Below, in pieces: positions 41,026-49,176 of a stretch of 64,000 nt of DNA. Every line of letters starts with the position of its first letter. Positions within the stretch are counted from its first letter, which is position 1. Where the stretch lies: NCBI GenBank assembly GCA_902728285.1, contig CACVBU010000362.1, positions 857,156 to 921,155 on the forward strand, written 5' to 3'. This DNA comes from Clytia hemisphaerica. Taxonomy: Eukaryota > Cnidaria > Hydrozoa > Leptothecata > Clytiidae. The position numbers were made by a program, and so were the translations under genes. The notes under the pieces are model-generated. The model worked only from the letters and a program-made list of their open reading frames with translations. It did no database searches and was not told the origin of the DNA.

Positions 41026-44000
41026 TTACCTAAAAGAAAATCAGGTTAAATTCATTTTCCTGCTTTTCATTTTTCGAAATTTTTCTGAGGTTATTCCTAC
41101 TTGCTGATTAGAAACCGTAAATCGTAAATCCAAAAGCACTGAAAGCCAAAAATTCAAAAGAAAAACAAGGCAACCGAGATAAGCAAAAATTAAAAAATAG
41201 AAAGAAGAGCAAGTTTGCGGTGGGCGAGGGAAAATATACTTTGAGTCGATGACGTCATTATTTTTTTTTAACTTGCCCCCTTCGCATGAACAAGCGAATT
41301 GAAGATTTTTTATACCTTAATCGCCTAGCTTCTCTCTCAGATTCCAACAAAGTCAAAACATCTCCTTCACGGACTGGTCCTTTCACGTTGCGGATGATGC
41401 TTCGGTTGGTATCGTCGATAAATTCCACACGTACCTGAAAAATGTTAGCTCATTCTGTTAGGTTCCAAATAAACGTGGGGCCTAATTGCCGAGGGGGGGG
41501 GGGGGTTGGAAATTGTACTTCTGAAAACAGAAAATAAGGTAAATATAGGCTAAAATCAGGCTATTTAGATCAAAATAAGGGGCCTTCTATTTGACAGCTA
41601 AAAATATTCTTAAAAATTAAGAAACAAGGGGTCCTTATAAGGTCCGGGAAGGGTTGGAAAATTATCGAAATATTATCAAGCGGGGAGGGCCGTTTATTTG
41701 GAACCCAAGAGTAATAATGATTTTTCGCCTAAAATATTTCTCGACTGCCATTTTCGAGCATCCCTTCCGACGATCAATTGAGAATTAACTGGAGAGAAGA
41801 GCCTGTCTTCATATTTAAATCTGATCTGATGTATTTATTTCACCATCAGTATACAAATAAGAAATTACCGCCTGGAGAGGCTTAATCAAATTGTTAAATT
41901 GTTAGATGAGAATGGAAAAAGTGCAATCAATTGAGATGTATACGATTCAATTTTCTAAAAATAAGATCAAGTAAAAAGTAGAATGATAAACTAAAATATT
42001 CCATAAATGGTTTAAATTTCATATTATGAACGACATGTCTACAGTTCATAACTAATGCGTCAAAGAAAATTCTGTATAGAATTGAACAGTTTCTTTTGTG
42101 GTTCCTGGTTTAACTTGTTCTAAGGCTTTTTCAAAATGTTTTTCTGTAATGCTCGTCGCGTTTATATCTTCACGAAGCGCCACAAGTCCTGCTTCTTGGC
42201 AAGCTGAACATATCTCTGCGCCAGAGTAACCTTCCGTTGAACGAACAAGTTTCTCAATAGATACTTCACTAGTGATAGGCATAGACCGAAACTGGATTTG
42301 AAAGATTTCGCGGCGGGTTTTGTCATTGGGCAAAGGTACGTAAACCATTCGATCAATACGACCAGGTCGGACCAGTGCTGGATCGATAATGTCAGGTCGG
42401 TTTGTGGCAGCGACTACGATCACACCAGTCAAGGATTCCACGCCGTCTAATTCTGTAAGGAGTTGAGCAAGAACCTTATCTCCTGCATTATTCTCTTTGC
42501 CTTTCCTCTGAACACCCAGGGCATCAATTTCATCAAAGAATACGATAGTAGGTGCTGACATTCTCGCTTTATGGAAAAGCTCCCTCACTGCACGTTCCGA
42601 TTCTCCAAGGTATTTATTGAACAGTTCTGGTCCCTTGATCGAGATAAAATTAATATCACTTTCAGTGGCTAGGGCTTTAGCTGTCAAAGTTTTGGAGCAG
42701 CCTGGTGGTCCATATAACAACAAACCAGAAGGTGGCTTAATACCGAGACGACTGAATGATGCAGAATGCTTGAGAGGCCATTCTACAGCTTCTTTCAATT
42801 TTTGCTTCACTTCATCCTGGCCACCGACATCCTTCCAATAGACCTTTGGTACATCAACTGTCATTGCCTTGAGTGCACTTGGACGAACTACACACAATGC
42901 GTCGGAAAAATCATCTTTAGTCACCAAATCAGGTAACAATTGATCACGATTCTTACGCTTGATGAAAGTAGAGCCAGCTTCCTTGCAAAGAGCACTCAGA
43001 TCACCACCGACATATCCATGAGTGGTACTAGCAAGCTGTAAAATATCATCATCCGTCAAGTTATTCTTTGTATCATTTAACAATTTAACAAGAATGTCAG
43101 CTCTTTCTGTGGTGTTAGGAACTGAAAATTCAACTTCCTTTTCGAATCTACCAGCACGCCGTAATGCAGAATCGATATCATTAAGCTTGTTTGTTAATGC
43201 AATGGCAACAAATGGCATAGATTGGTCGACCGAATCCATTAAGGTACACATTGTGGCAACAATACGCCTTTCTGAATCATTGCTGTTGTCAGTTCTTTTA
43301 GGGCACAATGTATCAAATTCATCAATAACAAGTATTGACGGTGCGTTCTCTTGACAATCGGTAAATATGTCTCTCAGGTTTTGTTCTGTTTCCCCAAAAA
43401 ATTTACTTGTGAGTTCAGGTCCATTAATTTCCCTTGTATATATACCAGGAAATTGTTTGACATAAGATTTCACTAAAAGTGATTTACCTGTACCACTTGG
43501 ACCATAAGCTAAGAGTCCTTTAGGTAAGGAAATACCGTATTCCTTATAAAGCTTGTTATCAAGTGAATGAAGAATGAAGTCTTTCAAATGACGTTCTTGC
43601 TTGTGGAGGCCACCAAATGGTCTTGCAGGTTGAAGAGGTAGTACTTCAACTTCCAAGTCTGGTCTACCCTTACCAAACTCCAAAACTGTATGCTCTTTAC
43701 TAAACACGTAACCAATTTTGGATTCAATGTCAATTTGCAAGGAAGAAAGTTGTTGACAAACATCCACTTCAACGTTGTCTATTACAATGTTATAGATTAC
43801 TCCGTTAAAAAGAACATCTAGATGATCTCCAGCACATATCAAAGCCTTGTCCAGGATATCAATGATTGATATTCTGAGTTCGTCAAAATTTACTGACTTA
43901 ATTCCAGGTACCGTAATTTGAGCAGAATCAGCAATGACGGGCGGTAAAGTTAATCTGCCTAGAAGGACACTCTGATTATACTGACATTGAATCGAACGAA

Positions 44001-49176: not shown

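Follow-up and report, generated by a model that had tools for sequence, protein, structure and literature searches.

The window analysed here, a 64,000-nucleotide stretch of the genome of the hydrozoan Clytia hemisphaerica (contig CACVBU010000362.1, positions 857,156 to 921,155), carries on its minus strand an intact gene for the ribosomal protein eS28 (RPS28), which extends over 4 coding exons from 49176 to 41026 (Table 1). The spliced exons encode a protein of 64 amino acids followed by a TAA stop codon, and 3 of the 3 introns are bounded by GT and AG with matching phases. The protein displays a full-length Ribosomal_S28e domain (Pfam PF01200) and is matched by the eS28 chains of the PDB, with 9eho as the best hit (E 3e-34). 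The second intron of this gene harbors, on the same strand, the whole coding frame of an unrelated gene, AFG2A, which is the single long open frame of the intron on that strand. This nesting had been proposed, together with the two gene names, in an earlier note on this DNA; both frames were verified on the sequence, and the names were found to be right by the PDB and Pfam searches for eS28 and by per-domain searches for AFG2A. Of AFG2A and RPS28 one gene each was found, and the former, which is intronless, sits in intron 2 of the latter.

Table 1. Features of the RPS28/AFG2A locus (positions in the window)
Feature	Position	Strand	Basis or remark
RPS28 coding exon 1 (MDKPKLAR)	49153..49176	-	donor GTAAGT
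RPS28 coding exon 2	45775..45822	-	acceptor top-scoring of the 522 minus-strand AGs in 40000-50000
RPS28 intron 2, 4,340 bases, contains AFG2A	41435..45774	-	splice reconstruction
RPS28 coding exon 3	41316..41434	-	single match in the assembly
RPS28 coding exon 4 (G + TAA)	41026..41029	-	splice reconstruction
Pyrimidine tract CTTTCTTTTC, TOP-like, upstream of the RPS28 ATG	49224..49233	-	read from sequence; putative
AG acceptor with 44361 as the first base of the exon, 18 bases ahead of the AFG2A ATG	44362..44363	-	candidate trans-splice or 5'-UTR-intron acceptor
AFG2A frame, intronless, 763 codons from ATG to stop, tandem AAA domains	42052..44343	-	ORF and domain searches
CpG-retaining stretch (o/e 1.20) with CpG-poor flanks, candidate AFG2A promoter	45054..45400	-	CpG ratio; putative
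TATAAA upstream of AFG2A	44692..44697	-	motif count
AATAAA, likely AFG2A poly(A) signal, inside RPS28 intron 2	41834..41839	-	sequence; cleavage predicted
MITE-like element with inverted ends	44898..45053	.	partial copies in 4/21 sampled loci
Repeat-like element, again with inverted ends, located past the 3' end of AFG2A and ahead of RPS28 exon 3	41455..41711	.	

The earlier note had also ascribed a "TOP-type" promoter to RPS28; the pyrimidine tract upstream of its ATG is indeed present, and this tract is the sole basis of the label. Intron 1 of the gene contains a 38-base unit in perfect tandem duplication (46090-46165) and two 53-base inverted arms (48014-48066 and 48978-49030) that are 87% complementary and 911 bases apart, the latter lying about 120 bases past exon 1. 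A snoRNA within the RPS28 introns was considered and rejected, as Rfam gave no above-threshold match in the window and one sub-threshold match (E 0.96) in 41000-49300. The gene at 35167-37875 on the plus strand, which we take to be BTF3-like, is arranged tail to tail with RPS28 and has a CpG-poor 5' half. Elsewhere on the minus strand of the window are broken frames that look like those of a non-LTR reverse transcriptase (15490-16608) and frames that we take to resemble a MAP3K1-like kinase with a RING-type part (8479-14099).

The assignment of the nested frame relies on searches with its separate AAA domains. With the second domain (D2), AFG2A came first at 536 bits, followed by archaeal VCP-like proteins (512) and yeast AFG2 (508) and, lower down, by p97 (at most 478), AFG2B (396) and NVL (395). 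AFG2A was also first with the first domain (D1), at 307 bits and with a narrow lead over yeast AFG2 (304) and VCP-like proteins (301), p97 (at most 296), NVL (234) and AFG2B (195) ranking below. AFG2B, NVL and p97, tried as alternative identities, were rejected since AFG2A outscored them in both domain searches. The whole-protein search placed p97 chains above AFG2A (619 vs 594 bits), which we ascribe to double matches, each AAA domain aligning with the two of p97. Taken domain by domain, no solved protein scores higher than AFG2A against the nested frame, its lead being clear in D2 and narrow in D1. The predicted protein shares with AFG2A/Drg1 (SPATA5) the tandem AAA domains and a D2 Walker A motif, GPPGCSKT, identical to that of the aligned AFG2A chain; the D1 Walker A reads GPSGTGKS. 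On the other hand, its N-terminal 249 residues had no AFG2A match, nor any other credible one, in a single-sequence search of the PDB (one match, to a tail fibre protein, E 2), which leaves an AFG2-type N-domain unproven. The N-terminus comprises a CDQC...HKC stretch that may form a small zinc-binding motif. A prokaryotic origin or a contaminant was likewise rejected: 1 of 56 pattern stretches in genome contigs was a relative, archaeal and with 47% in its best segment, as compared with 0 of 10 in viral contigs, and of 124 records of phages that encode distant AAA proteins, none covered 80%.

Both genes were searched for in the organism's own assembly, of 417,433,876 bases in 951 contigs. Among 59 scored candidates, AFG2A gave 36 matches, a single one of which, the window itself, was full, and the next best, at 35-36% identity, were single-frame PEX6- and PEX1-like genes. 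Exon-sized matches of lesser length show 50% over 113 residues (C472) and 59% over 37, which leaves a slight chance of a much-diverged parent. RPS28 exon 3 was also matched once, in the window. Since AFG2A and RPS28 were each found once in the 417-Mb assembly, neither gives the impression of being a spare copy. The absence of introns from AFG2A is a retrogene trait; an intron-bearing parent, as a retrogene would have, was not found in the assembly search, and around the gene, the ends of an insertion being undefined, neither a poly(A) remnant nor a target-site duplication was seen. The GC content of the frame is 0.51, 0.37, and 0.32 at the three codon positions. A decaying retrocopy was rejected, as the frame is intact and a parent was not found.

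The two next-best loci deserve a brief description. The PEX6-like gene (L003, 1336-3699, minus strand) is a single frame of 787 codons that matches PEX6 over both domains. The PEX1-like gene (L004, 1423-3861, minus strand) has a frame of 812 codons that matches PEX1 in the second domain, and it likely possesses upstream exons because its listed ATG falls within the tract preceding an AG. In both match lists p97-type chains outscore PEX6 or PEX1, and the two names are presumptive.

Just upstream of the AFG2A start codon lies an AG that could serve as a splice acceptor. On the simple and crude matrix used to score splice sites, it obtains 3.37, ranking 17th of the 522 minus-strand AGs in 40000-50000 and 5th of the 244 in intron 2, and the probability of finding an equal or better AG within 40 bases of the ATG by chance is 0.058. 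Its score falls inside the range of the genuine RPS28 acceptors, which obtain 13.17, -0.55, and 4.53, and is higher than that of the exon 3 acceptor (-0.55; 36th of 244 in intron 2), which leaves room for its use by the host transcript in competition with host splicing. Yet the score singles out no site, because four other AGs of intron 2 (41520, 42452, 41481, and 45745) do as well or better. The earlier note had described a strong acceptor 18 bases before the ATG; the position is correct, but "strong" is an overstatement for a score that is middling on this matrix. Two genes at hand provide an illustration rather than a proof: a strong AG (score 9.17, chance 0.001) precedes the ATG of the PEX6-like gene by 19 bases, and a weak one (score 0.49, chance 0.20) lies 1 base upstream of the ATG of the BTF3-like gene in the window.

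Upstream of this AG, a stretch of intron 2 has retained its CpG dinucleotides. When set against 350-base tiles of the sampled genome, its observed/expected ratio ranks at the 86th percentile, and that of the region upstream of RPS28 (49177-49700; 0.78) is not raised, at the 49th percentile, both quantiles being rough since stretches of unequal length are set against such tiles and the sample (21 loci, 208,001 bases of 417 Mb) includes as background sequence L010, the locus of a presumed VCP-like gene. The ratio is 0.19 at 44364-44897, 0.39 at 45401-45774, and 0.40 at 45823-47900. Beyond its first few bases, the CpG-retaining stretch has no repeat copies in the 21-locus sample, and we regard it, on this indirect evidence, as a candidate promoter of AFG2A inside intron 2, a reading against which the unraised ratio upstream of RPS28 counts. 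The TATAAA motif located closer to the gene is no evidence by itself, since 2 such motifs are found in 44364-45774 vs 3.6 expected from base composition; the other one, at 44916, is inside a repeat element. Downstream of AFG2A, the AATAAA that the earlier note had reported within the intron is present, and intron 2 has two more on the same strand, at 42618 inside the frame and at 41698 inside a repeat-like element. AFG2A is flanked within the intron by the two repeat-like elements of Table 1, the second of which is copied in part (41468-41620) in 2 of the 21 sampled loci.

The mitochondrial genome of the assembly fits the hydrozoan background of this locus. A COX1 search returned one partial match, which covers positions 1-304 of 436 and sits at one end of a contig of 14,551 bases. 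The gene order of this contig, read with code 4, is rnl (opposite strand), cox2, atp8, atp6, cox3, nad2, nad5, rns, nad6, nad3, nad4L, nad1, nad4, cob, and cox1, with two tRNAs. Within a Pfam scan of 10 frames, specific families identified cox1, cob, nad1, nad6, nad5, cox3, atp6, and cox2, the remaining 2 matching a general antiporter family only; nad4, nad2, nad3, nad4L, and atp8 are our own reading of the sequence. An end with cox1 beside cob is described as hydroidolinan, the ancestral medusozoan order having cox1 and rnl together (PMC4655093, PMC3519871), and the contig fits the hydroidolinan type. Hydroidolinans have a further cox1 at the opposite end; none was seen there in this contig, which may be incomplete.

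Hydrozoans are reported to add spliced leaders in trans, with operons possible (PMC3273482, PMC11067881). Leaders are described on some Hydractinia transcripts (PMC11067881), and in Hydra an experimentally tested bicistronic operon has as its second gene flp, which is intronless and trans-spliced (PMC3273482). Since hydrozoans trans-splice leaders, an acceptor near the AFG2A ATG needs no cis donor from RPS28 or from elsewhere upstream, and an acceptor right before the start codon has the look of a trans-spliced gene. By analogy, the AG that precedes the start codon of AFG2A by 18 bases may be a trans-splice or a 5'-UTR-intron acceptor.

The reading that we favor, and to which we grant an even chance, is that of a parallel nested pair in which AFG2A forms its own transcription unit, trimmed by splicing at 44361, likeliest through a spliced leader. 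A promoter located in the 5' portion of intron 2, for which 45054-45400 is the candidate, would give rise to a short AFG2A primary transcript. Splicing at 44361 would trim the 5' end of this transcript, the simplest route being the addition of a spliced leader, known from other hydrozoans, and its 3' end would be formed after the AATAAA at 41839. The RPS28 mRNA would then arise through ordinary cis-splicing, exon 2 being joined to exon 3 across the whole nested gene and the internal poly(A) site being passed over. As the host polymerase crosses this poly(A) site in every model, host splicing must beat cleavage there.

The locus could also function as a nested operon, a reading that we consider unlikely. 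A single pre-mRNA from the RPS28 promoter would mostly be cis-spliced into RPS28 mRNA and, in a minority of cases, undergo trans-splicing at 44361 with cleavage past 41839 to give AFG2A mRNA, so that intron 2 would be the outron of AFG2A and each pre-mRNA would yield one product or the other. The shared strand in a hydrozoan genome is consistent with such an operon, as is the acceptor at -18, which scores above that of exon 3. The RFC140-flp operon of Hydra resembles it in being hydrozoan, in its intronless second gene and in the spliced leader added there at an upstream acceptor, but the two Hydra genes are described as consecutive within 417 bases rather than nested, and flp as horizontally acquired (PMC3273482). 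The CpG-retaining candidate promoter that stands between exon 2 and AFG2A also speaks against it. In its boldest form, with the RPS28 pre-mRNA as a forked precursor giving either the 40S protein or the 60S assembly motor AFG2A in a ratio set by splicing competition, this reading is equally unlikely; on the scores, the advantage of 44361 over the exon 3 acceptor would count in its favor, as it would for the model discussed next.

The earlier note had suggested that RPS28 exon 1 or 2 could be cis-spliced to 44361, which would tie both outputs to one promoter, AFG2A being then preceded by a short upstream frame that ends in TGT TGA. Joining exon 1, or exons 1 and 2, to 44361 does produce this stop before the AFG2A ATG. 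Scores of 7.29 and 7.25 rank the donors at 49153 and 45775 16th and 17th in 10 kb, and for splicing out of exon 2 the acceptor at 44361 (3.37) beats that of exon 3 (-0.55). We nonetheless judge this model improbable, given that four AGs of intron 2 equal or exceed 44361, that AFG2A would depend on reinitiation after a frame of 9 or 25 codons, that such a junction would be superfluous in an animal capable of trans-splicing, and that a candidate promoter stretch lies inside the intron. Quite improbable too is a promoter situated just upstream of the gene, for instance at the TATAAA of 44697, with no splicing at 44361: the chance probability of 0.058 would allow the AG to be fortuitous, but TATA motifs do not exceed their expected number and the PEX6-like gene also has an acceptor near its ATG. 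Finally, a misassembly or a non-functional retrocopy is very improbable, for although the frame is intronless like retrocopies, it is uninterrupted and has a codon-position-specific base composition, no intron-bearing parent was found, and a misassembly is at odds with the position of the window at 857-921 kb of its contig, with RPS28 exon phases that are consistent across the insert and with both genes being found once.

Parallel nested genes are a known arrangement and intronic genes are common in animals; what is new is this pairing. Parallel pairs are reported to account for 76 of 296 simple nested pairs in human (about a quarter) and 55 of 248 in mouse (PMC8467205). In the ctenophore Hormiphora, 1654 host genes are reported to contain 2357 nested intronic genes, many of these in parallel orientation, and 56% of Iso-Seq reads to carry leaders (PMC8527503); a glass sponge is credited with 2432 nested intronic genes (PMC10282587). 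Host exonization and premature polyadenylation are described as possible outcomes of nested genes (PMC3192792, PMC13309782), and human retrocopies offer a general background (PMC7290577). In the mouse H13/Mcts2 pair, a retrotransposed gene similarly lies in a host intron in sense-sense orientation, and Mcts2 is reported to have its own promoter and to affect the choice of host poly(A) sites (PMC13309782). The two systems differ in that Mcts2 has a parent, Mcts1, and is imprinted, whereas no parent was found for Clytia AFG2A. The pairing of AFG2A with RPS28 was not found in the literature searched, and RPS28 goes unmentioned in a study of sponge ribosomal protein gene introns.

The RPS28 and AFG2A families both serve ribosome production. 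Yeast Drg1/AFG2 is reported to release Rlp24 from pre-60S particles, and human SPATA5 to be required for 60S assembly (PMC12332008). AFG2A lies wholly within one intron, as other nested intronic genes of animals do, but here both partners take part in ribosome production, and the host is short, with three introns, instead of being long with many. The association of two ribosome-production genes, each found once, with a short ribosomal protein gene as host and in an animal of a trans-splicing group, is unusual. If one promoter did drive both outputs, the balance of a 60S assembly factor with a 40S protein would be set by the choice of splicing, and the intron would hold a nested operon in an animal that trans-splices. 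Otherwise, the locus would be another parallel nested gene, useful as a case in which to study how a ribosomal protein gene of small size escapes the use of a poly(A) site inside it.
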